DNA of 64,000 nucleotides, taken from NCBI RefSeq assembly GCF_011806425.1, contig NZ_JAATOV010000002.1, positions 434,001 through 498,000 on the forward strand, read 5' to 3'. Of the stretch, positions 31,367 through 46,952 are shown in pieces (within the stretch, counting starts at the first letter, position 1; the number at the start of each line of letters is the position of its first letter). A program made the position numbers and the translations under genes. The notes under the pieces are model-generated. The model searched no databases. It was not told where the DNA came from and saw only the letters and a program-made list of their open reading frames with translations. Source of the stretch: Thalassospira lucentensis. Lineage in GTDB: Bacteria > Pseudomonadota > Alphaproteobacteria > Rhodospirillales > Thalassospiraceae.

Positions 31367-31717
31367 ATGTTTCTTATCTGGCGAGGATGGGGCATTTTGG
31401 CGCCCTTTGCCGCATTTATTGGTGCGCTGATTGCCATGTTCATTTTTGAACTGGTTGAACAGTTCGTTCCCCGGGTAATGTTGACCCCCGTGGTCATGCT
31501 TGGCGCGACGCTGGCGGTATTTTTGACCGCACACTTGTTGGAACGTACCGACAAGGGACGCGAATTGCTGGATGAAAAAACCGGCCAAACCGTCGTGCTT
31601 AAGCGCGGCGACAGCATCTTCTTCATCAAGGTGCGCTACTGGGCATACATCTTTGCGATTATCACGCTGATTATGTTTGTGGTCAGTCTGACAAGCGTGT
31701 TTGGCGGCGGCGCGTAA
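31367..31717 (+). CDS. Small membrane protein of unknown function
   Basis: 116 residues, not recognised. Three hydrophobic segments (about 7-28, 38-55 and 90-110) flank a short soluble stretch with ERTDKGRELLDEKTGQ, which looks like a cytoplasmic loop. It begins FLIWRGWGIL, and the same opening is, to my knowledge, shared by other small uncharacterised bacterial membrane proteins. ATG 31367 follows an AGAGGA site. Single gene, closed by a strong convergent terminator. Confidence 0.7.
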   Translation: MFLIWRGWGILAPFAAFIGALIAMFIFELVEQFVPRVMLTPVVMLGATLAVFLTAHLLERTDKGRELLDEKTGQTVVLKRGDSIFFIKVRYWAYIFAIITLIMFVVSLTSVFGGGA

Positions 31718-31740
31718 ACCGCCCTTAAAACAAGTATTCA

Positions 31741-31770
31741 AAACGGGCTGCCTGCTTGGGCAGCCCGTTT
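31741..31770. terminator. Bidirectional terminator
   Basis: 12-bp perfect stem (31741-31752 with 31759-31770) with a 6-nt loop between the small membrane protein gene and the convergent cupin gene. Confidence 0.93.
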
Positions 31771-31806
31771 TCATTTGTAGTCCATGCGCTCATGACACCC
31801 CCGACC

Positions 31807-32310
31807 TTAATCGCGGGTCAATGCTGCAATCATATCGGACGCGGCGGGCCATTTGGCGGTCAATGCTGCGCGCGTGCCCATCGAAAAATCAGCAAAGTCA
31901 AAGCCCGGCGCCACCGTGCAGCCCAAAAGGGCAAACTTTCCGCCCGGTTTCAGGCGTGCGCCCTGCCAGACATTTTTGGGGACAATCATTTGCGGTGTTT
32001 GCCCCGCCAGCAGGTCCTTGCCGATTTCGACATGCTTGTGTGTGCCGTCTTCAAACAGCTGCAATTGCTCCACCGGGTCGCCAAGATAATGGTGGAAAAT
32101 CTCGTCACTGGTCAGGATGTGCATGCCCGAAAAGGTATCAGGGGTCAGCAAATAATAAATCGCCGTACCAGTACTGCGCACCCCCAGATACCGGTTGCCC
32201 GGATTGCAGGTTTCAAATGCGCGGAATGTTTCAGCGTAGTAGCCGCCTTCGGGATGGGGTTGCAGGCCAAGTTTTTCGATCAGGTCGTCAATCTTGATGG
32301 CATCTGACAT
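31807..32310 (-). CDS. Cupin family protein (DUF985, cupin_5)
   Basis: 167-residue single-domain cupin. The opening LGLQPHPEGGYYAETFR is the DUF985 signature, followed by STGTAIYYLL and the metal or ligand pocket region FHHYLGDPVEQLQL, and the late segment VAPGFDFADF typical of the family. ATG 32310 is chosen because it gives the conserved start and has AGGGAAG upstream; in-frame extension to 32397 is unsupported. Enzymatic role unknown; some relatives are thought to bind sugars or nucleotides. Confidence 0.85.
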   Translation of the reverse strand: MSDAIKIDDLIEKLGLQPHPEGGYYAETFRAFETCNPGNRYLGVRSTGTAIYYLLTPDTFSGMHILTSDEIFHHYLGDPVEQLQLFEDGTHKHVEIGKDLLAGQTPQMIVPKNVWQGARLKPGGKFALLGCTVAPGFDFADFSMGTRAALTAKWPAASDMIAALTRD

Positions 32311-32447
32311 GGCGGGCTTCCCTGTGATTACGGCGTTTATATCCATCATCATGACGAAAAAAGGGGGAAGGCGCAAACCTTCCCCCGAATAGTCCAAAGC
32401 AATTTCAAGACGCCATCCACAAGATGGCTGCCTGCGATATAAACCGC

Positions 32448-32975
32448 TTAGTTGGCCATCTTGCTGTGGTCCATGTCGCCATGATCCATTTTACCATGGT
32501 CCATGTTGCCGTGATCCATATCGCCCATGCCAGCCGGACCTTTGGACTTCGGATCAAGCACATGGATCATGACCGGCACGTCACCAGCTTTTTCGAACTC
32601 CAGCGTCACATTGACCATTTCGCCTTCTTCAAGCGGCTTTTTCAGGCCGATCAGCATGACGTGGTAGCTGCCCGGTTTGAACATGACATTGCCATGCATC
32701 GGCACTTCAACACCGCCTTCGACTTCGCGCATTTTCATCACGTTGTCTTTCATGATGTGGGTGTGAAGTTCGGTTTTGTCGGCAAGGTCGCTGCGCACGC
32801 CAACGATGCGATCCGCATCACCGTGGTTTTCGACTTTAAAGAACGCCGCACCGTTGCGGACCTGTCCGATGGAGGCCTTGGTCCAGGCGTCTTTCACTTC
32901 GATATCCGCAGCAAAGGCGCTGGTGGCAACGAAAAGCGATGCGATGGTGGCAAAAACGGCAAACAATTTTTTCAT
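32448..32975 (-). CDS. Periplasmic copper chaperone PCu(A)C family, with Met/His-rich tail
   Basis: 175 residues with a Sec signal (cleavage near AFA-AD). The cupredoxin-like PCuAC (DUF461) fold binds Cu(I) with H71/H73, M80/M82 and the H105xM107 pair in GSYHVM; such chaperones deliver copper to the CuA site of cytochrome oxidase. The C-terminus (about residues 150-173) is an unusual five-fold M-D-H-type repeat that would add several extra copper ligands, similar to tails of periplasmic copper-storage or CopK-like proteins. It lies 74 bp downstream of the DUF2946 gene on the same strand, together a small copper-handling unit. CtaA (17690-18757) serves the same oxidase. Confidence 0.9.
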   Translation of the reverse strand: MKKLFAVFATIASLFVATSAFAADIEVKDAWTKASIGQVRNGAAFFKVENHGDADRIVGVRSDLADKTELHTHIMKDNVMKMREVEGGVEVPMHGNVMFKPGSYHVMLIGLKKPLEEGEMVNVTLEFEKAGDVPVMIHVLDPKSKGPAGMGDMDHGNMDHGKMDHGDMDHSKMAN

Positions 32976-33049
32976 AACATTTCATCCTGTTAACGGCGTG
33001 CACTGGCACCGCCGTGATTTCGATAGTCAGTTGGAAGTCAGATCGGAAA

Positions 33050-33544
33050 TCAGATGAAAGATGGCGGTGCGCGCGAATGACGAATGCGCGGAATGTCATG
33101 CCCCGCCGCAACACCCACCGCATGGGCATAATCGACATTATGGGGAACGGAAACAGGCGCCACATAAGGCGCATCAATATCGACCACCGCCCCATGGTGG
33201 GTCGCGCAAAGCGAACAGAACCCATGCCCCGCAGATTGTGCGGGTATATCAGGCGTGTCAGTGCCGCCATCAAGCGAGACGGCCTTAATACCCGTCCCAG
33301 TACAGATCAGAATAACGTTGCTGCCCGGTGTGGCCTGCGCGCCAGAAATGCCGTCAAACTGCCCGTTTAAAAGGGCGGGGACAAAGCCCGATTGGGTGAT
33401 TCCCGCAAGCAGGATGACAACCGCCATGGCCCATGTTTGAACAACACGGGCAACAGAAAAGCCAAAACGGCGATATGGGCGTTTGGTTGTATCCATAAAC
33501 GTGATATGCCCGATTTGAGGCGTCGCTGCAATGACATTGATCAT
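33050..33544 (-). CDS. DUF2946 family periplasmic/membrane protein, copper-linked
   Basis: 164 residues with an N-terminal TM or signal segment at about 32-50, a CSLC pair near residue 110 followed by a His-rich stretch (ATHHG), and the characteristic ending IRHSRAPPSF. These are hallmarks of DUF2946, small proteins usually found next to copper transporters or PCuAC. ATG 33544 has AAGG 7 nt upstream; ATG 33496 is an alternative start. Probably transcribed with the downstream chaperone gene. Role inferred from context only. Confidence 0.75.
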   Translation of the reverse strand: MINVIAATPQIGHITFMDTTKRPYRRFGFSVARVVQTWAMAVVILLAGITQSGFVPALLNGQFDGISGAQATPGSNVILICTGTGIKAVSLDGGTDTPDIPAQSAGHGFCSLCATHHGAVVDIDAPYVAPVSVPHNVDYAHAVGVAAGHDIPRIRHSRAPPSFI

Positions 33545-33580
33545 TGCCCCGCCTTAAGAATAACGTTCTTATTCTGATAC

Positions 33581-34066
33581 TTGATCGTTAAAATTGGAGC
33601 GACGACAAGCTCTGTCAAACTGCCCCACCCTGCCTTGCCGGGTACCGACTGGGCGGACAGTTTTACGATCACCACATCCCAAACCGGGATCACGCCGGAC
33701 ATCGCCGCCCGCAAGATTATGGAATCGCGTCCCGGATGGGTCGTGCGCTTGATGCAGTTTCGCGATCTGGTCATGCGGCCTTTCGGGTTGAAATCGGGCA
33801 TCAACGATCCGGACAATGCCGATATTATCGGAATTTTCCCAGTGATTTCGCGCAGCGATACATCGATTGTTCTGGGCTTGGACGACCGGCATCTTGATTT
33901 CCGCCTGATCATTGAAATCGAAGAAACCGCAACCAACCAAACCAAAATCAAGGCCACCACGGCGGTGAAACGTCACAACATGTTTGGCCGTGCGTATCTT
34001 GCGACGATCACGCCGTTTCATAATCGCATTGTCCCCGCGATGTTAAACGCGGCCTATTGTCCCTAA
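33581..34066 (+). CDS. DUF2867 family protein
   Basis: About 161-residue soluble protein matching DUF2867 (PALPGTDWADSFTI at the start, PGWVVRLMQFRDLVMRPFGL in the middle, HNMFGRAYLATITPFHNRIV at the end). Function unknown; the fold is START-like in some descriptions. The only start upstream of the conserved region is TTG 33581, preceded by an in-frame stop at 33575 and without a clear ribosome site, so the start is uncertain. Divergent from the DUF2946 gene with only 36 bp between them. Confidence 0.75.
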   Translation: MIVKIGATTSSVKLPHPALPGTDWADSFTITTSQTGITPDIAARKIMESRPGWVVRLMQFRDLVMRPFGLKSGINDPDNADIIGIFPVISRSDTSIVLGLDDRHLDFRLIIEIEETATNQTKIKATTAVKRHNMFGRAYLATITPFHNRIVPAMLNAAYCP

Positions 34067-34078
34067 ACCCACGCATGC

Positions 34079-34113
34079 AAAAGGCCGGGCTGAATGTGTC
34101 AGCCCGGCCTTTT
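34079..34113. terminator. Bidirectional terminator between DUF2867 gene and fumC
   Basis: 15-bp perfect stem (34079-34093 with 34099-34113) with a 5-nt loop and A/T tracts at both feet. Confidence 0.95.
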
Positions 34114-34139
34114 ATCATTTGGGGTATGGAAAAATGCGC

Positions 34140-35531
34140 CTAGATCATATCGCGCGCATTGACCAATTCATCAAACTTGTCCCCATCTAGGAAGCCAAGT
34201 GCGACGGTGGCTTCTTTTAGGCTGGAGCGATCTTTGTGGGCCTTTTTGGCGACCGCGGCGGCATTGTCATAGCCAATATGCGGGGCCAAGGCGGTGACCA
34301 GCATCAAGCTTTGTTCGACATAATGATCGATCTTTTCCTGATCGGCCTCTAGACCGGCAATGCAATTATCGGCGAAGCTGACCGAGGCATCGGCAATCAG
34401 GCGGATTGATTGCAGCAGGTTATAAATAATCACCGGCTTAAACACGTTTAGATCAAGGTGCCCGTTTGATCCTCCAACGGTAACGGCAACATGATTGCCC
34501 ATCACCTGTGCGCAGACCATCGTAAGGGCCTCTGCCTGGGTTGGGTTAACCTTGCCCGGCATGATCGATGATCCGGGTTCATTCGCGGGCAAGACCAATT
34601 CGCCCAAGCCACACCGCGGCCCCGAACCCAGCAGGCGAATATCGTTGCCGATTTTCATCAGCGATGCGGCAAGAACGTTCATCACGCCCGACATTTCAAC
34701 GCAGGCATCATGTGCAGCCAGGGCTTCGAATTTGTTTTCAGCAGTTTCGAACGTAAGGCCGGTGATTTTAGACGCCTGTTTGGCAAATTCGACATCAAAG
34801 CCCGATGGTGCATTCAACCCCGTCCCCAGCGCCGTTCCACCCTGGGCCAGTTTGCGCAGACGCTTAAGCGCATCGTCAATCCGGTCCAGCCCCAGTTCAA
34901 TTTGCATGGCATAGCCGGAAAATTCCTGCCCCAAGGTTAGGGGGACGGCGTCCTGCATGTGCGTGCGGCCGATTTTAACCGTGTCTTCGAATGCTTTGAC
35001 CTTGGCATCGAGGGTACTGCGAAGATGGTTTAAGGCAGGTTTGAGTTTTTCTTCGATTTCGACCACGGCGGCGATATGCATGGCGGTCGGGAAACTGTCA
35101 TTGGACGACTGGCCGCGATTGACGTGATCATTGGGATGGACAGGATCACGCCGCCCCATCGGTTTGCCAAGAATTTCACACGCACGGTTAGCGATCACTT
35201 CGTTGGTGTTCATGTTGGTTTGGGTACCCGACCCGGTTTGCCATACCACCAACGGAAAATGATCAAGCAACTTACCATCGGCAACTTCGCCCGCCGCGGT
35301 TTCAATGGCCTCCGCCAAATCCGCATCGAGATTACCAAGGGCGAGGTTCGCACGCGCGGCCGCCAGTTTTTGAATACCAAACGCCTTAATTAGCGCATCT
35401 GGCATCCGGTCCCCGCCAATGCGGAAATTCTGGGTGGAACGTTGTGTTTGCGCGCCCCAATACCGGTCTGCGGGGACTTCAATCGGGCCCATGGTATCAT
35501 TTTCGGTACGGGTATCTGGCTGTTTGGTCAC
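34140..35531 (-). CDS. fumC: Class II fumarate hydratase
   Basis: Iron-free TCA-cycle enzyme interconverting fumarate and malate, 463 residues, the standard FumC length. Signature [13 protein letters not shown] (about residues 316-328), substrate-site segments [13 protein letters not shown] and [13 protein letters not shown], and [10 protein letters not shown] near the end are present. The start is GTG 35531, decided by GGAGG 9 nt upstream; the open frame continues to 35642 with unlikely codons. The heat- and superoxide-resistant class. Monocistronic. Confidence 0.94.
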
Positions 35532-35684
35532 AATAGAATTCCTCCGTGTCAGAAAGCAAACTGACCGGGATGGGGCACCCGGCGCGGCAAGCAATGAAGT
35601 GTTTCTGCGAAGGAATATGGTTCGAAAACCGCACGAGCGCAAATGCGATTGATATTAAATCGCAAAATAAATGAGCTGTTTCGG

Positions 35685-36515
35685 TTATTGACCCTGCGCC
35701 GTCATCAGCTTTATGCCCGCATCGCGCAGCTGGGATATGAAGTTTGCGGGCGGAAGAAGATCGGTGATGATCCCGGTCAGCGCATCAAGCGGTGCGATGC
35801 TTTCCAGCGCGCAGTGATCAAACTTGCTGTGATCGACCATCAACCATGTTGCATCCGCCCGTTCCATCATCGCACGTTTGACCGCAACCGCACGCCGGTT
35901 GGCGTCACTAAATCCATCGGACGCAATACCCGATGCACCGATAAAGGCGATGTTTGCATGAAACCGACGCAGGAAATCGATGGTATCACTGCCATAGACC
36001 GCATTTTCACGCGGATCAAATTGCCCCGGACACATCACCACATCATCGCGGTCAGACACATCGCCCATGCCCTGCACCACCGCATAGCAATTTGTGATCA
36101 ATGTGCGCCGGATGCCGCCCAAGATAACGCCATTTAGGCCAAGATACGGGCCAAGCTGTGCGACGGTCGATCCCGCATCAATCATCACGACATCGCCGGG
36201 GTGAACCAAATCCGCCGCCAACCGACCGATATCGTTTACCCCCGGCACCGCACTTGATTGACGATCTGCCAGGTTGGGCTGCCCATCCATCGGGCGGGCC
36301 GATGCACCGCCAAATTCACGCGTAATCAGACCATTTGCACTTAGGGCATCAAGATCACGTCGGATCGTCTCGGTTGCGACATCGAATCGCTCGGCCAATG
36401 TGGCAACTCTCACATGGGGATGAAGGTTTAATTCCTGCAGGATGCTTTGCTGTCGTTGTTTTTTTCCAATCCGCAAAGCGGTGTCCCCGGCAAATACTGG
36501 CCTGATTAACGGCAC
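35685..36515 (-). CDS. DeoR-family transcriptional repressor, GlpR-like
   Basis: Up to 276 residues. The N-terminal DeoR helix-turn-helix is at about residues 18-75 (VATLAERFDVATETIRRDLDALSANGLI), and the sugar-phosphate-sensing DeoRC domain follows, with MIDAGSTVAQL and the closing FIGASGIASDGFSD and WLMVDHSKFD blocks that follow E. coli GlpR closely. Start is GTG 36515 or, more in line with the family, TTG 36476 with GGGG upstream. It is divergent from phnD-phnC-phnE-phnE-glpD, so it most likely represses that operon and its own gene and is released by glycerol-3-phosphate; the effector is inferred from homology and context. Confidence 0.85.
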   Translation of the reverse strand: MPLIRPVFAGDTALRIGKKQRQQSILQELNLHPHVRVATLAERFDVATETIRRDLDALSANGLITREFGGASARPMDGQPNLADRQSSAVPGVNDIGRLAADLVHPGDVVMIDAGSTVAQLGPYLGLNGVILGGIRRTLITNCYAVVQGMGDVSDRDDVVMCPGQFDPRENAVYGSDTIDFLRRFHANIAFIGASGIASDGFSDANRRAVAVKRAMMERADATWLMVDHSKFDHCALESIAPLDALTGIITDLLPPANFISQLRDAGIKLMTAQGQ

Positions 36516-36605
36516 AATCCCTAAGATGACCGCTATTTTACCAAGAGGAGCCGAAACCTTTTGTTACAGTTTTGTGTTGATTTCCAAACTTTTTCAAATT
36601 CATAA

Positions 36606-36622
36606 TGTTGGCAAAACCAACA
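36606..36622. promoter_or_regulatory. Candidate repressor operator
   Basis: TGTTGG-CAAAA-CCAACA, a perfect 6-5-6 inverted repeat in the spacer between the DeoR-type gene and phnD, embedded in a run of AACAA/AAACC-type repeats (to about 36648). Placement suits an operator for the adjacent repressor. It does not match the E. coli GlpR consensus. Confidence 0.45.
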
Positions 36623-36649
36623 ATAACAAAACCACAAAACCACAAAATC

Positions 36650-36665
36650 GCCGGGAAAACCCGGC
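36650..36665 (+). promoter_or_regulatory. Leader hairpin upstream of phnD
   Basis: GCCGGG-AAAA-CCCGGC, a 6-bp GC hairpin with a stable tetraloop followed by TTTCA, 28 nt before the phnD start. It could be an attenuator or mRNA-stabilising 5' stem. Confidence 0.5.
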
Positions 36666-36693
36666 TTTCACAGGGAAGAAAGGTCTAAGGATC

Positions 36694-37692
36694 GTGTTTT
36701 CGCATTCGAAAAAAATTGAAACATTGAAGTTTACCAGCCTGCTGGCAGCAATCGGCATGGTTGGCATGGCATCCGCCCCAGCAAAGGCCGCTGACGATTG
36801 CATTGCGCGCGGCGATCTTGACCAGATCTATTGCGACATGAACGGTGACCTTGTTGCCGATGCCCCGGCCGAAGATCAGCTGGTTGATCCCGATACACTT
36901 GTTTTTGCCTATACCCCGGTCGAAGACCCGGCGGTCTATGCCGATATCTGGGACCCGTTCCTTAAACATCTTGAAGAAGTGACCGGCAAAGACGTTCATT
37001 TCTTTGCGGTTCAGTCAAACTCCGCCGAAGTTGAAGCCATGCGTTCGGGCCGTCTGCATGTTGCAGGTTTCTCGACCGGGCCGACCCCGTTTGCAGTGAA
37101 CCTTGCCGGTGCGGTTCCGTTTGCACTGATGGGCGGAGATGATGGTCGTTTTGGCTATACGCTTCAGCTTTATACCCGGACCGACAGCGGGATTAATACG
37201 GTTGCCGATCTGAAAGGCAAACGCGTTGCCCATACGTCGCCGACGTCAAACTCGGGCAACCTTGCACCGCGTGCCCTTCTTCCGGGTCAGGGCGTTGTGC
37301 CGGACGAAGATTACGAAGTTGTCTATTCCGGGTCGCACGATCAGTCGATCCTGGGCGTTGTTGCCGGTGACTATGACGCGGCCCCGGTCGCATCCGAGGT
37401 TGTTGACCGTATGGCGCAGCGCGATCTTTATGATCCGAGCGAAGTTAAGGTCATCTACGAAAGCAAGCCTTTCCCGACCACGTCGTTTAACTACGCCTAT
37501 AACCTCAAACCTGAATTGGTTGAGAAAATCAAAGAAGCGTTCTTTACCTTTGATATGAAGGGCACGGCCCTTGGTGAAGAGTTTAAAGGTGTCTCGAAAT
37601 TCATTCCGGTTACCTATCAGGATGACTGGGCTGTTATTCGTGAAATTCAGGCCGCCAACGGTGTCAAATACACCCCGGACAACCTGAAGTAA
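36694..37692 (+). CDS. phnD: Phosphonate-type ABC transporter substrate-binding protein
   Basis: Periplasmic binding protein of the PhnD family, 332 residues. GTG 36694 gives an ideal signal peptide (two Lys, hydrophobic core, cleavage near AKA-AD) with AAGG just upstream; TTG 36724 is an alternative. The phosphate/phosphonate pocket loop is visible as HTSPTSNSGNLAP (about residues 180-192), and YSGSHDQSILGVVAGDYDAAPV supplies a His-Asp pair. The binding of a phosphorylated group is therefore expected. Because the operon ends in glpD and is controlled by a GlpR-like repressor, the natural ligand is more probably glycerol-3-phosphate or a relative than a phosphonate. Family is certain; ligand is inference. 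Confidence 0.9.
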   Translation: MFSHSKKIETLKFTSLLAAIGMVGMASAPAKAADDCIARGDLDQIYCDMNGDLVADAPAEDQLVDPDTLVFAYTPVEDPAVYADIWDPFLKHLEEVTGKDVHFFAVQSNSAEVEAMRSGRLHVAGFSTGPTPFAVNLAGAVPFALMGGDDGRFGYTLQLYTRTDSGINTVADLKGKRVAHTSPTSNSGNLAPRALLPGQGVVPDEDYEVVYSGSHDQSILGVVAGDYDAAPVASEVVDRMAQRDLYDPSEVKVIYESKPFPTTSFNYAYNLKPELVEKIKEAFFTFDMKGTALGEEFKGVSKFIPVTYQDDWAVIREIQAANGVKYTPDNLK

Positions 37693-37723
37693 TCCACACC
37701 ATTCCCATCTTGACGACCAAGCG

Positions 37724-37744
37724 GGGCCCGATGATTTCGGGCCC
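37724..37744 (+). terminator. Hairpin between phnD and phnC
   Basis: GGGCCCGA (37724-37731) pairs perfectly with TCGGGCCC (37737-37744) over a 5-nt loop, without a U-run. Probable partial terminator or 3'-end protector for the phnD mRNA segment. Confidence 0.7.
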
Positions 37745-37776
37745 TGTGATGGCCCATTTATATCCGGGGTAACGCA

Positions 37777-38574
37777 ATGCTGCGTATCAAAGAACTCGTA
37801 AAGCGCTATGGCAACGACAAGGCGGTTCTCAAGAACCTGAACCTTGAAGTACCGGGCGAAAGTGTCGTTTCCATTATTGGCGCTTCGGGGGCGGGCAAAA
37901 GTACCTTGCTGCGCTGTATCAACCGATTGGTCGAACCGTCTTCGGGGTCCATCGAACTTAATGGCACCGAACTGACCAGCCTTGAAGGCAAGGCACTGCG
38001 TCTGGCACGGCGCCGCATTGGCATGGTGTTTCAGGGGTTCAACCTGATTGATCGCCTGACCGTCATGGAAAACGTTCAATCCGGGCGTCTTGGCTATCTT
38101 CCGGCGTGGCGCGCGATGACGCGCAAATACCCACAAGAAGACATCGACCGGGCATTTCATTTGATGGAACGTGTGGGCATTGCCCATTACGCCAACAAAC
38201 GTGCCGATGAACTTTCCGGCGGGGAACGCCAGCGTGTCGGGGTTGTGCGCGCCTTGATGCAGGAGCCAGAAATCCTGCTGGCCGATGAGCCGACCGCATC
38301 CCTTGACCCGAAAACATCCAAACAGATCATGGAACTGCTGCGCGCACTGGCGTCTGAGCTGCATCTGCCGGTTCTGATCAACATCCACAACGTTAACGAG
38401 GCCAAGGAATATACCCAGCGTATTGTTGGCATGCGGTTTGGCCGCATCATTTTCGATGGCGAACCCGTCGATCTGAACAATGACGCGATGGACGAAATTT
38501 ATGCCGGTGTCCCAGCCGAAGAACGCGGCGGGGCCGAAAGCAGCACCCATTTGCGTGAGGTTGCGGCAAAATGA
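37777..38574 (+). CDS. phnC: Phosphonate-type ABC transporter ATPase PhnC
   Basis: ATPase of 265 residues. Walker A GASGAGKST (about 34-42), Q-loop MVFQGFNLIDRLTV, signature LSGGERQRVG, Walker B ILLADEPTASLD and a degenerate H-loop (NIHNVNEAKEY) are all typical of PhnC. Length and the NIHNV H-loop distinguish it from the polar-amino-acid group. Stop overlaps the first permease (ATGA), so the complex is co-translated. Energises the PhnE1-PhnE2 channel. Confidence 0.93.
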   Translation: MLRIKELVKRYGNDKAVLKNLNLEVPGESVVSIIGASGAGKSTLLRCINRLVEPSSGSIELNGTELTSLEGKALRLARRRIGMVFQGFNLIDRLTVMENVQSGRLGYLPAWRAMTRKYPQEDIDRAFHLMERVGIAHYANKRADELSGGERQRVGVVRALMQEPEILLADEPTASLDPKTSKQIMELLRALASELHLPVLINIHNVNEAKEYTQRIVGMRFGRIIFDGEPVDLNNDAMDEIYAGVPAEERGGAESSTHLREVAAK

Positions 38575-39377
38575 ACACGACCGTTGAAAAAACCGGTCGC
38601 ACCTGGAAAAAGCCGCCCTTTATCGCCAATCCGGCGATCCGTTGGGCGCTGATTATCGGGATTGCGGCCTATGTCTGGTGGGCCTTAACCAGCCTGCCAT
38701 TTGATTGGGATCGTATTCAACAAGGCATCCCACGCGCTATCCGCATTTTTAAGGGCGCATTCCCGCCCAGCTTCCTGCGGGGTGAGTTGCTGTTTGATGG
38801 CTTTATGGAAAGCATCAAGATCGCGATTGTCGCCACCCTTTTGGGGCTGGCACTAAGCGTTCCGATTGCCTTTGCATCCGCCTCAAATGTTGCGCCTAAA
38901 TGGCTTTATACCATCGGGCGTGGCGTGATCATTGTCGCGCGGTCATTCCATCCGGTCATTGTTGCCATCCTGTTTGTGAAGGCCGTCGGGTTTGGGCCGC
39001 TTGCGGGTATTTTGACCCTGACGATCTATTCGATCGGGTTTGTTGCCAAAATGCTGGCCGAGCGGATCGAAGAAATTGATTGGGGTCAGGTCGAGGCGAT
39101 CAAATCAGTTGGTGGGGGCACATTTGTCACCATGCTGTATGCCGTGATCCCGCAAATCATGCCCCGTCAGATCGGCCTTTCGATCTATCAACTTGATAGC
39201 AATCTGCGTGCATCCGCCATTGTTGGCATCGTCGGTGCCGGCGGGATTGGATCGACGTTGCTGAATGCCTTTGGGCGGTATGACTATGACTTCGCACTGG
39301 CGATTACGCTGTGCATCATTGGCGTTATCCTTGTCAGTGAAGCCATCAGCGGCCGGATCAGGAGGAACCTATGGTAG
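38571..39377 (+). CDS. phnE: Phosphonate-type ABC transporter permease PhnE, first copy
   Basis: Permease of 268 residues with about six TM segments. The PhnE EAA-type loop is seen as EEIDWGQVEAIKSVGGGTFVTML, here noted at about residues 165-187, and the following IPQIMPRQIGLSIYQLDSNLRASAI region, with the closing VGIVGAGGIGSTL motif, is diagnostic of PhnE. It overlaps both neighbours (4 nt with phnC, 7 nt with the next phnE). Confidence 0.93.
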   Translation: MNTTVEKTGRTWKKPPFIANPAIRWALIIGIAAYVWWALTSLPFDWDRIQQGIPRAIRIFKGAFPPSFLRGELLFDGFMESIKIAIVATLLGLALSVPIAFASASNVAPKWLYTIGRGVIIVARSFHPVIVAILFVKAVGFGPLAGILTLTIYSIGFVAKMLAERIEEIDWGQVEAIKSVGGGTFVTMLYAVIPQIMPRQIGLSIYQLDSNLRASAIVGIVGAGGIGSTLLNAFGRYDYDFALAITLCIIGVILVSEAISGRIRRNLW

Positions 39378-40195
39378 CCACCACACAAAATTCCGGTCCT
39401 GACGCCATCGCCCACCGCGAATGGTCCCGTTATAGCAGCAAGCAACGCTGGATGCGGTTTGGCGCGACAGCACTTGTTGCGCTGGCGGTTATCTGGTCTT
39501 TATCGACGATCAATATCATCTGGCCGTGGTTGTGGGATGCCCCACAACAGATGGGCGATTTGTTTGGGCGTATGTTCCCACCGTCCCTTGAGGGATGGAA
39601 AGAAATTGCCTGGACCCTTTTGGAAACGATCAATATCGCAACGATTGCGACATTCTTTGCCGTTTTCATGTCCTTGCCGATTGCCCTGATTTCCGCACAG
39701 AACACCACGCCGAACCGCTATACCCTATGGCTTGGCCGGTTTATTTTGGTCTCGTCGCGTTCGGTTAACACCATCATCTGGGCATTGCTGTTTGTGGCGG
39801 TGTTCGGACCGGGTGTTTTGGCCGGTATTCTGGCAATCGTGTTTCGATCACTTGGCTTCCTTGGCAAATTGCTGGGCGAAGCGATTGAGGAAATTGACCG
39901 TGCCCCGATTGAAGCCCTTGAGGCGGTTGGTGCATCGCGGTTCAAAATCCTGGTTTACGGGGTTATTCCGCAAGTCATGCCGACCTTCTTTGCCGTGTCG
40001 ATCCTGCGTTGGGACATTAACCTGCGCGAAAGTACGGTTCTGGGTCTGGTTGGTGCCGGGGGAATTGGCATCATCCTTCAAGGCGCGATTGATACCTTTG
40101 CGTGGCAGACCGTTGCAACGATCCTGCTGGCGATTATCGGCCTTGTGATCATTGGCGAGGCGATTTCAGCTTACCTGCGTAAAAAGGTGATCTAA
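39371..40195 (+). CDS. phnE: Phosphonate-type ABC transporter permease PhnE, second copy
   Basis: Permease of 274 residues, a diverged homologue of the preceding gene, so the channel is a PhnE1/PhnE2 heterodimer as in many alphaproteobacteria. The loop EEIDRAPIEALEAVGASRF and the LGLVGAGGIGIIL ending are present. Its ATG 39371 lies inside the end of the first permease, and its stop is separated by one base from the GTG of glpD, tying transport to glycerol-3-phosphate oxidation at the level of translation. Confidence 0.93.
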   Translation: MVATTQNSGPDAIAHREWSRYSSKQRWMRFGATALVALAVIWSLSTINIIWPWLWDAPQQMGDLFGRMFPPSLEGWKEIAWTLLETINIATIATFFAVFMSLPIALISAQNTTPNRYTLWLGRFILVSSRSVNTIIWALLFVAVFGPGVLAGILAIVFRSLGFLGKLLGEAIEEIDRAPIEALEAVGASRFKILVYGVIPQVMPTFFAVSILRWDINLRESTVLGLVGAGGIGIILQGAIDTFAWQTVATILLAIIGLVIIGEAISAYLRKKVI

Positions 40196-40196
40196 C

Positions 40197-41717
40197 GTGA
40201 CGAAAACGTACGACCTTCTGGTCGTAGGCGGCGGCATCAATGGGGCGGGTATCGCCCGTGATGCCGCCGGTCGCGGGCTGTCTGTTCTGTTGGTCGAACA
40301 GCGCGATCTTGCCTCGGCTACGTCTTCTTCCTCGACCAAACTTATCCATGGCGGCCTTCGATATCTTGAACATTACGAATTCCGATTGGTGCGTGAAGCG
40401 CTTCAGGAACGCGAAGTTCTGTTATCCGCGGCCCCGCATATCATCTGGCCACTAACATTTGTTTTGCCGCACCACCGCGGGTTACGTCCCAAATGGATGC
40501 TGCGCGCGGGTTTGTTTTTGTATGACCATCTGGCCAAACGCAAACGCCTGTCGGGGTCACGTGCGGTATCATTAAACGGCACCGCCGAAGGCGATCCGTT
40601 AAACAGTGCCTTTCACAGCGGATTTTCCTATTCCGATTGCTGGGTCGATGACGCACGCTTGGTCGTGCTGAATGCCCAAGATGCACAGGCACATGGCGCG
40701 GATATTCGCACCCGTACCCGGTGTGAAAGCCTTATGCGCAATGCCGATCATTGGCAGGCAACATTATCGCCAGAAGATGGATCGACCGAGGTTATCCATG
40801 CGCGATCTGTGGTCAATGCCGCGGGCCCGTGGGTCACAAACATCGTTGATCATGCGGGCCTTGGTGATAAGGCCGCAGGCTTGCGGTTGGTCAAGGGCAG
40901 CCACATTGTTGTGCCGCGCATTCATGATCACGACCATTGCTATATTTTTCAAAATAGCGATGGGCGCATTGCCTTTGCCATCCCCTATCAGCGTGACTAC
41001 ACCCTGATAGGCACCACCGATGTCCCCTATGACGGGGATCCGGCGATGGTTAAAATCAACAGCGATGAAATCGACTATATGCTTGATTTGGTGAATGGCT
41101 ATTTGGCCAAGCCGGTCACGCGCGACGATATCGTTTGGGATTATTCCGGGGTGCGGCCGCTTTATGATGACAAGAACGACAATGCATCGGCGGTGACCCG
41201 TGATTATGTCTTTGATCTTGATACCGGGGAACATAACGATGTCCCGCCGATCCTGTCGATCTATGGCGGCAAGATCACGACATATCGCCGCCTTGCGGAA
41301 CATGCGATGCAAAAGCTTTGCCCCGTACTTGGCAATTTTGCCCCCGATTGGACGGCGGATGCGATCCTTCCGGGTGGGGATATGCCAGACGCGGACTTTG
41401 ACCGTTTCCTGGCGACGGCCAAGGCGCAGTTTCCTTGGATGCCCGAACCGCTTTTGCATCGGCTCTCCCGGTGCTATGGCACGGCCCTTTATCAAATTAT
41501 CGGGGGTGCCTCGGAAACATCACAATTAGGACAACAGGTTGCGCCAAACCTGTATGAAGTTGAATTGTCCTACCTGATGGCGCATGAATGGGCCCGCACC
41601 GCAGACGATGTTTTGTGGCGCCGGACCAAGCTTGGCCTTGGGATGCAGTCTGATCAGGTCGCTGCAGTCACTGACTGGTTTGCCGCCCAAGCCCGACTTG
41701 GTCGGGCTGCACACTAA
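40197..41717 (+). CDS. glpD: Aerobic glycerol-3-phosphate dehydrogenase
   Basis: Membrane-associated FAD enzyme (506 residues, E. coli GlpD 501) oxidising glycerol-3-phosphate to dihydroxyacetone phosphate and feeding electrons to quinone. The alignment with E. coli GlpD is strong throughout: FAD motif GGGINGAGIARDAAGRG, STKLIHGGLRYLEHYEFRL (positions about 42-60), SDCWVDDARLV, VKGSHIVVPR, DYSGVRPL, GGKITTYRRLAEHA and RTADDVLWRRTKLGL. GTG 40197 starts one base after the phnE stop. No glycerol kinase or facilitator is in the operon, so the substrate should enter already phosphorylated. A terminator follows. Confidence 0.96.
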   Translation: MTKTYDLLVVGGGINGAGIARDAAGRGLSVLLVEQRDLASATSSSSTKLIHGGLRYLEHYEFRLVREALQEREVLLSAAPHIIWPLTFVLPHHRGLRPKWMLRAGLFLYDHLAKRKRLSGSRAVSLNGTAEGDPLNSAFHSGFSYSDCWVDDARLVVLNAQDAQAHGADIRTRTRCESLMRNADHWQATLSPEDGSTEVIHARSVVNAAGPWVTNIVDHAGLGDKAAGLRLVKGSHIVVPRIHDHDHCYIFQNSDGRIAFAIPYQRDYTLIGTTDVPYDGDPAMVKINSDEIDYMLDLVNGYLAKPVTRDDIVWDYSGVRPLYDDKNDNASAVTRDYVFDLDTGEHNDVPPILSIYGGKITTYRRLAEHAMQKLCPVLGNFAPDWTADAILPGGDMPDADFDRFLATAKAQFPWMPEPLLHRLSRCYGTALYQIIGGASETSQLGQQVAPNLYEVELSYLMAHEWARTADDVLWRRTKLGLGMQSDQVAAVTDWFAAQARLGRAAH

Positions 41718-41725
41718 TTCAAAAT

Positions 41726-41755
41726 AAAAGGCGGTGAAGAAATTCACCGCCTTTT
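41726..41755. terminator. Bidirectional terminator between glpD and gshA
   Basis: 13-bp perfect stem (41726-41738 with 41743-41755), tetraloop GAAA, and A/T tracts at both feet. Confidence 0.95.
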
Positions 41756-41794
41756 ATGCATTTGAAGTCATCTGGATCGCGCAATTGCGCAGGC

Positions 41795-43165
41795 TTAGTA
41801 AGCATATTCCTTGAACAGCGGATCGACCGAGCCATTCCACTCGGTTTCATACTTATCCAAGAATTCCTCGGCCAAGGTACGACCGCTTTCGGCGACGTCT
41901 TCGAGGCTATCAAGGAAGTGGCTTTCATCATCGCCATAGCCATCCATGCGACCCCGGTTTTTCAGGCCCTGCTTGGAAATTGCCAGAACGTCCTTGGCAA
42001 GATCCTGCACCGTGCCGTTTTTAAACTTGGTGGCAAGGGCGGTGCGCGGCACATCGTTACGCAGCGCTTCGCGTTCTTCGTTGCTCAGATCGCTGACCAA
42101 ATTCCAGGCGGCATCCAATGCGGCATCATCATACAGCAAGCCAACCCAAAGGGCCGGCAACGCGCAAATGCGTTTCCACGGGCCACCATCGGCACCGCGC
42201 ATTTCAAGAAACTTCTTAAGGCGGACTTCCGGGAAGGCGGTGGTCATATGATCTGACCAGTCATTCATGGTCGGACGTTCACCGGGCAACACATCAAGTT
42301 TGCCAGCCATGAAATCACGGAACGACTTACCCGCAGCATTGATGTATTTGCCATCGCGATAGACAAAATACATCGGCACATCGAGCATATAATCAACATA
42401 GCGTTCAAAGCCAAAACCGTCTTCGAACACAAATGGCAGCATGCCACAGCGATCCGGATCGGTATCGGTCCAAACGTTCGAGCGTGCCGACAAGAAGCCG
42501 CTTGGTTTGCCATCAATGAACGGCGACGCGGCAAACAGGGCCGTTGCGACCGGCTGCAAGGCCAAAGACGCGCGGAATTTTTTGACCATGTCGGCCTCGG
42601 ACGAATAGTCCAGGTTGACCTGAATGGTTGAGGTCCGCAGCATCATATCAAGGCCAAGATTACCGACCTTTGGCATATAATCGCCCATGATCGCGTAGCG
42701 GCCTTTTGGCATCCACGGGATGTCTTTGCGTTCCCATTTCGGGTTATGCCCGACACCAAGCATATCGATGCCAAGGTCATCACAAATCTGGCGCACCTGA
42801 TGCAGGTGGGTGTGTACTTCACCACAGGTCTGGTGAATATTTTTAAGCGGCGCACCCGACAATTCAATCTGCCCACCCGGTTCGAGCGAGACAGAGCATT
42901 TGTCCTTGGTCAGCGCAATGACATTGCCGTTTTCAATGACTGGTTCCCAGTCATAATGTTCGGCAAGGGCATTCAGCAGGGTTTTAACCCCACGTTCGCC
43001 TTCGTAAGGGATGGGGCGAAGATCATCGCGGGTGAAGGCGAATTTTTCGTGTTCGGTGCCGATGGCCCAGTCGCTTTTTGGCGTACAGCCGGACTCGAAC
43101 CATTCGACAAGCTGGCGCCGGCTTTCGATTACCGGGCTATCGCCAGTGGAGGCGCTGACAGTCAT
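41795..43165 (-). CDS. gshA: Glutamate-cysteine ligase, plant/alphaproteobacterial type
   Basis: First enzyme of glutathione synthesis (456 residues), joining L-glutamate and L-cysteine with ATP. It is the GCS2-plant class seen in alphaproteobacteria, not the E. coli class. Recognisable segments are [10 protein letters not shown] (about residues 35-44, substrate glutamate and metal ligands), [14 protein letters not shown], and [17 protein letters not shown]. In plants this class is redox-regulated by disulfides; several Cys are present but equivalence is not established. It begins 11 nt after rsmE, so the two form an operon. Confidence 0.94.
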
Positions 43166-43176
43166 AAGGGCTTCCC

Positions 43177-43977
43177 CTAATCTCTCGTGACGGGCTGGTT
43201 CGACCAGTCGCCGATACGATCCTGAAATACAGTTAACGCAGCAATTGCCGCCGTTTCGGCCCGCAAAATGCGCGGTCCGAGACTAACAGGGGTGGCAAAA
43301 GGCTGTTTACGGATATTTTCAAGTTCGTCGGCGCTAAAGCCGCCTTCAGGTCCAATCACGAGTGCATGGTTAATAACATTGACATTGTCGATAACCGAGC
43401 CAGCGCCCTTTGCCAAGAGCTGACTTAACACTTCACCAATTGGTGACCCTGATCCGGTTTCGTCACAAAACAGCAAATGGTTGTTTTCCGGGCACTTCGC
43501 CACCCAATCCAGCAGACGGACGGGTTCAAATATTTCTGGCACGGTCAGGCGTTCGCACTGCTCGGCGGCTTCGATCACCTGTGACTGCAACCGATCAAGG
43601 CGCACCTTATCGGTAATGCCGTGCTGGGTAATGACGGGCTGAAGCCGCCCGACCCCCATTTCGACAGCCTTTTCGATCAGAAAATCCAGACGCTGCTTTT
43701 TGATCGGGGCGAAAACAAGGGTCGGTCCGACTTCGGTTCCTTGCGGGCGCAATTGCCGTTCAACCGCAACACTTCCCTTCTTTTTACGCAATGCATTAAT
43801 GGTTGCGAGCCACTCGCCATCTAGACCATTAAATATCTTTACAGGCGTTCCGGGCTTGAGCCGCATCACATGTTCAAGGTAATGAGACTGTTCAGGGGAA
43901 AGTTCGATCTCGGATCCGGGCGTGATAGGATCGGAAACGAAAAGGCGTTGGCGCGCACGGGCGGCGTCTGCTGTCAT
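43177..43977 (-). CDS. rsmE: 16S rRNA (uracil1498-N3)-methyltransferase
   Basis: SPOUT-class methyltransferase (266 residues) that methylates U1498 in the ribosomal decoding centre. The N-terminal PUA-like RNA-binding domain ([29 protein letters not shown] at about residues 11-39) is followed by the knotted SAM domain with [34 protein letters not shown] and [13 protein letters not shown], all diagnostic. ATG 43977 is the likely start; an upstream ATG at 43989 is in frame. Co-transcribed with gshA and divergent from ubiA, a neighbourhood I associate with many alphaproteobacteria. Confidence 0.95.
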
Positions 43978-44050
43978 GGATATCCTCAAACATAGCCCAA
44001 AGCCAAAAAATGGCCGGGTTCGAATTCGTTAGGCGTTACATAGGTCGATT

Positions 44051-45004
44051 ATGACACAGGTCAACCAACCAATACAGACTGGCAAGAACGATATGCCCCA
44101 AGACGGCTGGATTGACCGTTTTGTGCCCGAACCCGCACGGCCGTATTTAAAGCTGTTGCGTCTGGATCGGCCGATTGGCACGTGGCTTTTACTGTTGCCG
44201 TGTTGGTGGTCGACCGCGATGGCGGGGGGCATTACGCCGGGCATTGGGGCAAAACAGATCGTCATTATGATGACGCTGTTTGCGATTGGCGCGCTCATCA
44301 TGCGCGGGGCCGGTTGTGTGATCAATGATCTGGCGGATCGTAATTTTGATGGCAAGGTCGAACGCACCATCACCCGCCCGCTTCCAAGTGGGCAGGTAAA
44401 AGTCTGGCAGGCATTGGTGTTTCTTGCCGCGATATTGTTACTCGGCCTTGCGGTTTTGGTGCAGTTTCGCATCGAGGCGATCATTGTCGGCCTGTGTGCC
44501 ATGCCAATTGTGATCACCTACCCGTTTATGAAACGCATCACCTATTGGCCGCAGGCGTGCCTTGGCCTAGCGTTTAACTGGGGCGCGCTTGTTGGTTGGG
44601 CCGCGGTGACCGGCACGGTCGAGCCAGCCGCAATTGCTGTGTATGCCGCCGGGTTCTTTTGGACACTGGGCTATGACACGATTTATGCCCATCAGGACAA
44701 AGATGACGATGCCAAAATCGGCCTGAAATCACTTGCGCTGCGTCTTGGCGATGCGACGCCGAAATGGGCAAAAGGGTTTTATATGGCAACCACCCTGTTG
44801 CTGGGCGTTGCCGGGACGTTGGCCGATTTGCATTGGTCGTATTTTGTCTTGCTGGGTCTTGCCGGTATTCATCTTGGCTGGCAGGTCGCGACGGTGAAAC
44901 TTGATGATGCGGCGAACTGTTTGAAACGGTTTAAATCCAACCGTGATTACGGATTGCTGGTGTTGGCCGCAATTGTGTTGTCACACCTGATTGCGATTGC
45001 ATGA
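44051..45004 (+). CDS. ubiA: 4-hydroxybenzoate polyprenyltransferase
   Basis: Intramembrane prenyltransferase of ubiquinone synthesis, 317 residues, about eight to nine TM helices. The first Mg-diphosphate motif is NDLADRNFDGKVERT (NDxxDxxxD, about residue 95), and the second is YDTIYAHQDKDDD (about 210). LLRLDRPIGTWLLLLPCWWS at the first helix is typical of UbiA. ATG 44051 is used; the ribosome site is weak (AGGT). Divergent from rsmE. UbiD, for a later step of the same pathway, is at 51055-52593. Confidence 0.95.
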   Translation: MTQVNQPIQTGKNDMPQDGWIDRFVPEPARPYLKLLRLDRPIGTWLLLLPCWWSTAMAGGITPGIGAKQIVIMMTLFAIGALIMRGAGCVINDLADRNFDGKVERTITRPLPSGQVKVWQALVFLAAILLLGLAVLVQFRIEAIIVGLCAMPIVITYPFMKRITYWPQACLGLAFNWGALVGWAAVTGTVEPAAIAVYAAGFFWTLGYDTIYAHQDKDDDAKIGLKSLALRLGDATPKWAKGFYMATTLLLGVAGTLADLHWSYFVLLGLAGIHLGWQVATVKLDDAANCLKRFKSNRDYGLLVLAAIVLSHLIAIA

Positions 45005-45152
45005 TATTTTAAAACAGACATTGGATAAATCAGGTCTGGGATTTTCAAAACGGAACCCCATCTGTTTGACATTCCGCTGGTTGGCATCGTGCTGTTTGTC
45101 ATCCTGTTTGAACACATTTCGTACATTTTAATTTACGTATAAGGGCCTGTTT

Positions 45153-46952
45153 ATGACCGCACCGCTGGCCTTGATGATTGCCGGGCTGATCCTTGCCGGG
45201 GTTGGTGCCCAATGGATGGCATGGCGCGCCGGTGTGCCCGCCATTGTGTTGCTGTCCGCGCTTGGACTGGCCTTGGGGCCGGGCACCGGCTGGATTGATC
45301 CGGTGGCCGATTTTGGACCGTTGTTGCAGCCGCTTGTCGCGGTTGCCGTTGCTGTGATCCTGTTTGAAGGCGGCTTGGCGCTGGATTTCCGGGAATTGCG
45401 CCACAGTGTCAGCGGCATCTTGCGCCTGACAACAATCGCCCCGCTTTTGGCCTGGTTGATGGGCGGTGTCGCAGCCCATTATCTGGCCGAATTGTCATGG
45501 CCGGTCGCGGCCCTTTTTGGCGGCATCATGATTGTCACCGGTCCAACGGTGATTGCCCCGCTTTTGCGCCATGCCCGCATGGCCAAACATCCCAGCACGC
45601 TTTTGAAATGGGAAGGGATTGTTAATGATCCGATTGGCGCGCTGTTTGCGGTTCTGGCCTATGAGATCATTGTCGCCCTGCATCGCGGAAATGACCTCAG
45701 CACCGCCATCGGGCATTTGGCCCTGACCATTATTGTTGCCATGGCGATTGGCCTTGTGGTGGGCTTTTGCACCGTTCAGGTATTCCACCGGGGTTGGATC
45801 CCGGAATTTTTAAAAGCGCCGCTGGTTTTAGGCGTGCTTTTGACCTGCTTTGCCGGGGCCAACATCGTTCAGGAAGAAACCGGTCTTTTGGCGGTCACGG
45901 TACTTGGTCTTGTGATCGGCAATGCGCATTTGATGGCGATTGATGAAATCCGCCGGTTTAAAGAAACCCTGACGGTTATTTTGGTTTCAAGCGTGTTCAT
46001 CATTCTGACCGCGACCTTGAAATGGTCGATGGTTGAAGAGCTGACCTGGGGGCATGGCCTGTTTGTTTTGGCGATGCTGTTTGTGGTGCGCCCGGCGTCG
46101 ATCATCGGGGCGTTGGCCTTTTCCAAGATTGATTGGCGCGAACGGATTTTGGTGGGCTGGATTGCCCCACGCGGCATTGTCGCCGTGGCGATTTGCGGCC
46201 TTTTTGGCACCGAACTTGTAAATCTTGGATATAGCGACGGCGCACTTTTGATCCCGCTTGCCTTTGCCATGGTGTTTTCAACGGTTGTGTTGCACGGATT
46301 TTCGATCCGTCCGATGGCGCGCTATCTTGACCTTGCGGTTAATGGTCCGCCCGGTGTTTTGATTGTTGGCGCCCAACAATGGACGATTGATCTGGCCACC
46401 CGTCTGGATGAGCTGGATATTCCGGTCGTGATTACGGATTCACGTTGGCACAGCCTGCGTCCGGCCCGCGAAGCCGGGCTGACCACTTTTTATGGCGAGG
46501 TGCTGTCAGAGGTGTTTGAGCATCATCTGGATACGTCCGCGTTGGGCAAACTGATCGCCACCACGGATAATGACGCCTATAACACGCTTGTCTGTACCGA
46601 CTTTGCCCCCGAATTTGGCCGTCGTGCAGTATTTCAAACCGGTATTCACCGATCCCCCGAAGATCGCGGTCGCCACAGTGCCAGCCAAACCTTGGGCGGT
46701 TTGCCGTTTTGTTCCGAACCGCTGACCACCGATGATATCCGTTATGCCTATCGCAGCGGTGCACAGGTGCGCCATACCCGGTTAACAGATACCTTTGGCT
46801 GGGAAGATTTCATTGGCCATCATGAAAAAGCCCCGCCGGTCTTGGCCCTTGTGCGTGGTAATCAGCTTTTCATCGGCTCCGAAATCCCCAAGGCCAAGGC
46901 ACGCGATGTTATTATCTATCTGGGCGAGCGTGATGCGGAAAACGGATCGTAA
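45153..46952 (+). CDS. NhaP-type cation:proton antiporter with C-terminal TrkA-N-like domain
   Basis: 599 residues. The first ~390 are a CPA1-type Na+(K+)/H+ exchange domain with about 12 TM helices; the ion-site helix is seen as EGIVNDPIGALFAV (about residues 153-166), with the Asn-Asp pair typical of electroneutral antiporters, and the family segment FEGGLALDFRELR near residue 73. Residues ~395-520 form a Rossmann domain (VLIVGAQQWTIDLATRLDELDIPVVITD) like TrkA-N/RCK regulators, with ATTDNDAYNTLVC; the last ~80 residues could be a small ligand-binding tail. This suggests gating by nucleotide or NAD(H). AAGGGCC precedes ATG 45153. Probable role: pH and sodium homeostasis. Confidence 0.88.
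   Translation: MTAPLALMIAGLILAGVGAQWMAWRAGVPAIVLLSALGLALGPGTGWIDPVADFGPLLQPLVAVAVAVILFEGGLALDFRELRHSVSGILRLTTIAPLLAWLMGGVAAHYLAELSWPVAALFGGIMIVTGPTVIAPLLRHARMAKHPSTLLKWEGIVNDPIGALFAVLAYEIIVALHRGNDLSTAIGHLALTIIVAMAIGLVVGFCTVQVFHRGWIPEFLKAPLVLGVLLTCFAGANIVQEETGLLAVTVLGLVIGNAHLMAIDEIRRFKETLTVILVSSVFIILTATLKWSMVEELTWGHGLFVLAMLFVVRPASIIGALAFSKIDWRERILVGWIAPRGIVAVAICGLFGTELVNLGYSDGALLIPLAFAMVFSTVVLHGFSIRPMARYLDLAVNGPPGVLIVGAQQWTIDLATRLDELDIPVVITDSRWHSLRPAREAGLTTFYGEVLSEVFEHHLDTSALGKLIATTDNDAYNTLVCTDFAPEFGRRAVFQTGIHRSPEDRGRHSASQTLGGLPFCSEPLTTDDIRYAYRSGAQVRHTRLTDTFGWEDFIGHHEKAPPVLALVRGNQLFIGSEIPKAKARDVIIYLGERDAENGS

Follow-up and report, generated by a model that had tools for sequence, protein, structure and literature searches.

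We found in a 64-kb stretch of Thalassospira DNA (called the window below, always meaning the whole stretch) a regulator gene of the DeoR family that is divergent from the genes of a phosphonate-type ATP-binding cassette (ABC) importer, which are followed on the same strand by glpD, the gene of a glycerol-3-phosphate dehydrogenase. The genome comprises 4.50 Mb in 12 contigs and is 100% complete by the tool's figure, and the nearest named relatives of the locus are Thalassospira (13 loci, 82-92% identity). The locus, with gene names after the Gpx system introduced below, contains the following features:

35685..36515, minus strand: DeoR/GlpR-type putative repressor gene ("gpxR", our own label), conserved part from about 36464, divergent from gpxB
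36577..36606, plus strand: sigma-70-like predicted promoter, TTGATT-18-CATAAT, inside a block conserved over 15 aligned Thalassospira loci
36606..36622, plus strand: inverted repeat TGTTGGCAAAACCAACA, candidate DeoR operator, directly 3' of the -10 box
36694..37692, plus strand: gpxB ("phnD"), predicted periplasmic glycerol-phosphate-binding protein, GTG start, match to 9LF9 with nine contacts
37724..37744, plus strand: hairpin GGGCCCGA-TGATT-TCGGGCCC between gpxB and gpxA (by eye)
37777..38574, plus strand: gpxA ("phnC"), ATPase, TIGR02315 over cut-off
38571..39377, plus strand: gpxC ("phnE"), permease, TIGR01097 over cut-off, overlaps gpxA by 4 bp
39371..40195, plus strand: gpxD ("phnE"), permease, TIGR01097 over cut-off, overlaps gpxC by 7 bp
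40197..41717, plus strand: glpD, flavin adenine dinucleotide (FAD)-dependent sn-glycerol-3-phosphate dehydrogenase, gpx-linked paralog, matches to NF008899 and 2qcu
41724..41757, no strand assigned: terminator-like hairpin with a 15-bp stem, 3' of glpD on the side of the convergent neighbouring gene, scored on the minus strand

All six genes proposed in a preliminary description of this DNA are present with their coordinates and families, the profile matches to DeoRC (3.2e-36), Phosphonate-bd (1.3e-65), ABC_phnC (4.5e-96), PhnE (5e-77 and 8.4e-86) and GlpD (NF008899, 7.6e-234) all lying over their cut-offs. The longest open reading frame (ORF) of the substrate-binding protein (SBP) begins at 36442, within the DeoR gene; because relatives align from the GTG at 36694, the start of gpxB was set there. 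The stop codon of gpxD (TAA, 40193-40195) is separated by one base from the GTG of glpD at 40197, as had been described, and AAAAGGTG lies upstream of this GTG inside the 3' end of the last permease gene (by eye). Tight joining is limited to the last four genes, because the 84-nt gap between gpxB and gpxA carries a hairpin. A hairpin in this place would go with uneven expression of the SBP. A structured RNA element was considered and dropped, as an Rfam scan of positions 30000-46000 returned no family; the window contains no tRNA. The six-gene order is identical in all 15 mapped Thalassospira loci, the window included. Since this order is kept and GpxB occurs together with an extra GlpD in 24 of 29 genomes, as detailed below, the arrangement is not a product of chance.

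The SBP belongs to a kind for which experiments are available. Wang et al. (PNAS, 9 Dec 2025; PMC12718374) report GpxB as a PhnT-family SBP that binds glycerol-1-phosphate (G1P) and sn-glycerol-3-phosphate (G3P), with a Kd of about 1.0 µM for G3P and 2.5 µM for G1P. The authors report low-micromolar affinities for both ligands in five GpxB proteins, of which the window's is not one; crystal structures of the protein from Marinobacter DSM11874 were solved with G1P and G3P (9LF9, 9LFB), a gpxB ugpB double mutant did not grow on G1P or G3P, and Gpx of Phaeobacter sp. MED193 was induced by G1P or G3P relative to glycerol as carbon source. The preliminary description had known of no experimental account of such a system, which this published binding, structural and mutant work contradicts, and its list of ligands had left out G1P.

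The SBP of the window matches 9LF9 at E 1.7e-99, with 54% identity over 287 residues, and PtxB follows as second-best solved relative with E 9e-31. Nine ligand contacts are published for 9LF9 (head: T111, G112, Y138, S168, N169, S170 and H199; tail: R223 and T247), with residue numbers that match the printed 9LF9 chain at 9/9 positions, and the window protein keeps every one of them as T128, G129, Y155, S185, N186, S187, H215, R239 and T263. The full pattern is found in 115 rows of a 127-row alignment (the window, 9LF9 and 125 relatives), while serine replaces the last threonine in nine rows and three rows have other changes; PtxB, reading P, L, Y, S, T, S, H, H and Y at these places, keeps 4/9 (by eye). 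The protein passes the broad phosphate/phosphite/phosphonate subfamily TIGR01098 (214.8 against a cut-off of 112 bits) but does not reach the PhnD equivalog TIGR03431 (135.2 against 261.1 bits), and "PhnD" is therefore used here as a family name only. We conclude that the window protein is a GpxB and, judging from the experiments on its relatives, probably has a glycerol-phosphate ligand.

The GpxB tree consists of two well-supported halves, a window group of 88 rows and a 9LF9 group of 37 rows. Rows of the window's half are at least 70% identical to the window protein, with the exception of a Haloarcula plasmid copy (L040), and include Pseudophaeobacter (L154) and Leisingera (L141) proteins, which we take to be kin of the experimentally tested Phaeobacter GpxB. 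GpxB matches at E 1e-50 or better occur in 34/385 genomes of a class-wide sample. An AlphaFold model of GpxB was poor (mean predicted local distance difference test score 65) and was not used. Two loci (L061 and L075) contain a tandem gpxB pair, one copy of which has altered contacts (AGYSNSHRQ and PGYSNSHRS, respectively), a possible case of ligand diversification. For the Rhodopseudomonas SBPs RPA0699 and RPA0720, stabilisation to a similar degree by G3P, 2-aminoethylphosphonate and phosphate is reported (PMC3223731).

The GlpD of the window scores 776.8 bits over its full length on NF008899 (cut-off 360) and aligns with E. coli GlpD (2qcu) over 495 residues at E 8.8e-166, which bears out its description as a full-length homologue. 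No change affects the contacts that we take to form its active site (R54, Y55, H233, R317, R332 and K354). The 15 gpx-linked Thalassospira GlpDs share 29 fixed positions that differ from E. coli and from both of the genome's own paralogs, and just one of 20 listed positions around the presumed active site belongs to these (256, V to A). An altered stereospecificity of the gpx-linked enzyme was considered and dropped, given the unchanged contacts and this single near-site alteration. The tree of GlpD assigns the gpx-linked enzyme no clear origin, and its branches are long.

Linkage of GlpD to gpx was surveyed in 29 Thalassospira genomes, the window's included, at a GpxB threshold of E 1e-80. 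GpxB is present in 24 genomes and absent from five, and two or more GlpDs are encoded in all 29. Every gpxB-bearing genome has an additional GlpD, 70-100% identical to that of the window, on the same contig and strand and 2500-2518 bp after gpxB (24/24), whereas this class is missing from all five gpxB-free genomes, where paralogs reach 53-61%. The co-occurrence is significant by Fisher's test (p = 8e-6), with the restriction that relatives are not independent. The conservation that the preliminary description had wished to see surveyed is found in all 15 Thalassospira loci mapped. In total, 124 gpx loci were mapped, counting the window, and 18 of them have a same-strand GlpD downstream of gpx, namely these 15 and one each in Amorphus, Aureimonas and Deinococcus (55%, 53% and 31% identity to the window GlpD); in Pararhizobium (L099), it lies near gpx on the opposite strand. 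GlpD linkage appears at four places of the GpxB tree and its label needs four changes (3-5 in bootstraps), a pattern that would fit repeated recruitment of GlpD, although the starred branches by themselves force just one change.

The divergent regulator lies over the Pfam cut-offs for DeoRC and HTH_DeoR but under every listed NCBIfam equivalog cut-off, with 119.5 against 300 and 97 against 331 bits on the GlpR models. The earlier term "GlpR-like repressor" is thus supported by the DeoR helix-turn-helix and sensor domains but not by GlpR equivalence, and the protein may work in a GlpR-like way. Its gene is divergent from gpxB in 15/15 mapped Thalassospira loci. Measured against whichever of two gpx DeoR queries fits better, the 43 gpx-linked DeoRs reach 41-100% identity and the eight other DeoRs of the window genome 28-36%. 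A single gpx-specific clade of these DeoRs is not supported, as no bootstrap tree joins them alone.

Between the DeoR gene and gpxB, the 15 aligned Thalassospira loci share a conserved A/T-rich block, followed by the promoter and then by TGTTG-N7-CAACA. A promoter search of positions 36450-36750 found one promoter where 0.3 were expected from shuffles; the -10 box reads CATAAT in the window and TATAAT in L087-L090. The inverted repeat is exact in 14 of the 15 loci, occurs once in the window against 0.13 expected, and in its AA-core form TGTTGNNNNAANCAACA has a single match in the 4.5-Mb genome. The 400 bp upstream were also surveyed in 71 non-Thalassospira loci (L034-L037 and L092-L158, thus leaving aside L038-L041 and the class sample). 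Here, the repeat was detected within one mismatch in 13/29 DeoR-linked loci and in both loci with HAD-IIB and no detected DeoR, and in none of 18 two-component loci or 22 loci without a recognised regulator. The repeat is a likely DeoR operator, and in the plainest reading, the repressor would shut off the locus that encodes it. Conserved TGTTA/TGTTG and ACAAAAC elements also flank the promoter in Thalassospira (36560-36660 in the window) and might serve an oligomeric DeoR as additional half-sites.

Other glycerol and phosphonate genes lie elsewhere in the genome. A glpK gene adjoins a second GlpD and a glycerol-type ABC transporter that presumably resembles rhizobial glpSTPQUV, a further GlpD is encoded on contig 9, and a ugpBAEC-like operon (in L170; UgpB 402.9, just below the cut-off of 411) has no GlpD among its ORFs of 220 aa or more. 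The only PhnJ (carbon-phosphorus lyase) is found on contig 11, about 6 kb from a Phosphonate-bd protein that scores stronger on this family than the window SBP. GlpT has no match in the genome at E 0.001. Fe-ADH_2, a wide family that served as probe for G1P dehydrogenase, has three genome matches over cut-off and is also matched in 13/14 control genomes. The earlier statement that glpK and carbon-phosphorus lyase are lacking is thus correct for the window but not for the genome. As the genome has Ugp, GlpK with a glycerol ABC transporter and a carbon-phosphorus lyase with its own PhnD, and GlpT gives no match, Gpx-GlpD is probably a route parallel to Ugp, for substrate-induced carbon use. In Phaeobacter MED193, Ugp/UgpB is reported to be induced by phosphorus stress in a phoB-dependent manner (PMC10132767), and no Pho box stands out at gpx, from which we infer that Gpx-GlpD would be the carbon and Ugp the phosphorus route.

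With high probability, the locus is an operon of the Gpx type (PhnT family) that takes up glycerol phosphate and has oxidation built in, under DeoR control. The gene content, the identity and contacts of GpxB, the co-inheritance of GlpD and the conserved operator-like site come directly from computation, and ligand and transport are carried over from experiments on relatives. Accepting this analogy, GpxB would capture G3P and G1P in the periplasm, and GpxA, GpxC and GpxD would carry them inward. The GlpD, predicted to be translationally coupled, would oxidise G3P to dihydroxyacetone phosphate and pass the electrons to the quinone pool. We further infer co-transcription of the operon and its repression by the divergent DeoR-family protein, which would bind TGTTG-N7-CAACA at the transcription start until glycerol phosphate or its product, the putative effector, releases it. 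Cells would thereby gain a G3P-inducible means of using phosphorylated glycerol, mainly for its carbon but also for phosphorus, that bypasses glycerol kinase and runs parallel to Ugp. The central claim of the preliminary description, a glycerol-phosphate importer of the PhnCDE family that is linked to GlpD and differs from both GlpT and UgpBAEC, agrees with GpxB as nearest solved SBP and with the nine kept contacts.

Several observations weigh against this proposal. The 9LF9 protein sits in the opposite half of the GpxB tree, so that the ligand is carried over about 46% divergence, and binding, expression and mutant effect are predictions for the window GpxB. GlpD linkage is a minority arrangement among gpx loci, and counts from related genomes are not independent. 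Two of the genome's own DeoRs fall inside (L178) and beside (L181) the DeoRs of gpx loci, on long branches. The Thalassospira locus L090 has a broken repeat arm. The looser form, TGTTG-N7-CAACA, has one further copy in L077 and one in L171 of the window genome and is present in 13/100 window shuffles, which is why uniqueness is claimed for the AA-core form only. Outside Thalassospira, 16 of the 29 DeoR-linked loci do not have the repeat, and seven of the 13 that do are close Nitratireductor/Mesorhizobium kin with one variant and a changed arm (ACCACA or GCCACA).

Other explanations of the operon have to be weighed against the same data. That it encodes a phosphonate or phosphite importer of the classic PhnCDE or PtxABC type, which merely adjoins glpD, could be argued from the TIGR01098, PhnC and PhnE matches over cut-off and from plasmid relatives annotated as phnD. 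We give this hardly any credence, as the SBP misses the PhnD equivalog cut-off, has GpxB as its nearest solved structure and carries the tail-contact residues R239/T263 where PtxB has H/Y (by eye), while the stronger Phosphonate-bd protein lies near PhnJ on another contig and the extra glpD is present or absent together with gpx. An operon that serves mainly phosphorus scavenging in the Pho regulon, with carbon use via GlpD as a secondary effect, is very unlikely, even though imported glycerol phosphate of any kind finally yields phosphate and the Ugp of MED193 responds to phosphorus stress via phoB. Pho-box control of gpx was rejected because no site above chance lies upstream of gpxB (best 9/14, equalled in 64% of shuffles); the best ugpB upstream site reaches 11/14 (7% of shuffles as good), which is suggestive only. 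Moreover, the gpxB locus number has no match in the main text of PMC10132767, whose table may be a selection, and the Gpx of MED193 was induced by G1P or G3P as compared with glycerol (PMC12718374).

The physiological ligand could also be archaeal-lipid G1P or a glycerophosphodiester, of which GlpD would handle just a part. The almost equal affinity of GpxB for G1P and G3P (PMC12718374) speaks for this, as do the HAD hydrolases beside gpx in many relatives, for which action on either enantiomer may be assumed. We regard it as unlikely for the window, since GlpD is specific for sn-G3P, its presumed active site is unchanged, and HAD-IIA and HAD-IIB have no match within the mapped Thalassospira loci.

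The genes around gpx differ between lineages. We counted neighbours in 80 loci with 42 genus labels, which favour the half of the family around the window protein because they are the best of 526 confirmed relatives. A gene was taken if its start lay up to 2.5 kb upstream of the gpxB match or between 3.0 and 5.5 kb downstream of the start of that match. This zone holds homologues of HAD-IIA in 20 loci, HAD-IIB in 18, GlpD in 16, DeoR in 41 and a response regulator in 16; the remaining flanks up to 8 kb, some of them shorter, add one DeoR only. At least one of GlpD, HAD-IIA and HAD-IIB is found in 27/42 genus labels of this best-80 set, and five have none of the five families. A HAD homologue lies near gpx in another orientation or place in L040, L047, L060, L063 and L067. 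Five ORFs beside regulator-less loci (L043, L105, L110, L135 and L142) showed nothing recurrent: they encode MnmA, a ZupT-like transporter, a TetR-type regulator, a peptide-ABC ATPase and a reductase. Divergent from gpx, a two-component pair (response regulator and histidine kinase) stands instead of DeoR in 18 Rhodobacterales/Stappiaceae loci (L034, L036, L112, L119, L129, L131, L133, L134, L136, L137, L141, L145, L147, L148, L150, L154, L157 and L158), which suggests that glycerol phosphate is sensed there outside the cytoplasm.

Some relatives lie in other contexts. GpxB-type phnDCEE genes adjoin pst and ars genes on an Agrobacterium plasmid (L039) and aio genes on a Pseudorhizobium NT-26 plasmid (L041), with GpxBs of 53-54% identity that keep the nine contacts. 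These operons may supply phosphorus as glycerol phosphate without arsenate import; phosphate genes are reportedly known within arsenic islands. The Haloarcula plasmid (L040) carries an archaeal gpx operon near a glycerophosphodiesterase, a sugar-type ABC transporter and a HAD-IIA hydrolase, a possible set for lipid-headgroup salvage. In Ruegeria pomeroyi, phnCDEE (SPO0780-0783), ugp and glpD are reported as upregulated in co-culture with Micromonas (PMC9870897).

A more far-reaching reading, which we hold to be less likely than not, is that lineages combine a plug-in Gpx transport core with different catabolic partners, that the HADs are the missing G1P phosphatases and that DeoR is a glycerol-phosphate sensor. 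In Thalassospira, Amorphus, Aureimonas and Deinococcus, the partner would be GlpD, which oxidises G3P only; in many Rhodobacterales, Phyllobacteriaceae and Halomonadaceae, it would be a HAD-IIA or HAD-IIB hydrolase that dephosphorylates both enantiomers. Regulation would be by DeoR or a two-component system. A universal partner rule is opposed by 47 of the 124 mapped loci, mostly from the class-wide sample, which are labelled "none" when opposite-strand upstream DeoR, response regulator or HAD-IIB and downstream HAD-IIA or GlpD are counted.

The E. coli glp regulon (GlpR, GlpTQ, GlpFK and GlpD) likewise combines a DeoR-family repressor with G3P import and GlpD, but the window operon has an ABC importer where E. 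coli uses GlpT, contains no glpK gene and comes with a DeoR that is no GlpR equivalog by score. UgpBAEC, a G3P importer of the CUT1 family, handles the same substrate class with a binding protein of a class unrelated to GpxB's. PhnCDE and PtxABC share the SBP, ATPase and permease families, but the SBP pocket and the partner genes of the window differ. The closest likeness is GpxBACD of Phaeobacter sp. MED193 and Marinobacter DSM11874, which shares the PhnT-family SBP, ATPase, permeases and nine contacts and likewise coexists with Ugp in one genome (PMC12718374); the window operon adds glpD, the divergent DeoR gene and the conserved operator-like site. The words "glpD", "DeoR", "operon" and "phosphatase" have no match in the main text of PMC12718374, a scope that excludes supplementary files and the gene-neighbourhood drawing (Fig. 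1C), and its authors may be aware of the linkage. Among the matches listed from the open-licence literature of PubMed Central, preprints not covered, there was no description of a gpx-glpD or gpx-DeoR operon. The kind of transporter is already known, and, as far as searched, the coupling to GlpD, the partner swap and the candidate operator are undescribed.

Glycerol phosphate is the backbone of membrane lipids. GpxB is reported to be a widespread marine transporter, the regulation of which its authors leave open in the main text (PMC12718374), and the locus and its relatives supply candidates both for the regulator, with DeoR and the operator-like site, and for the enzymes that consume the substrate. 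"Phosphonate transporter" genes of the Gpx type are probably glycerol-phosphate transporters under a misannotation, which, if true, would affect estimates of marine phosphonate use. If the partner swap is true as well, HAD phosphatases would let bacteria recycle the archaeal lipid backbone.

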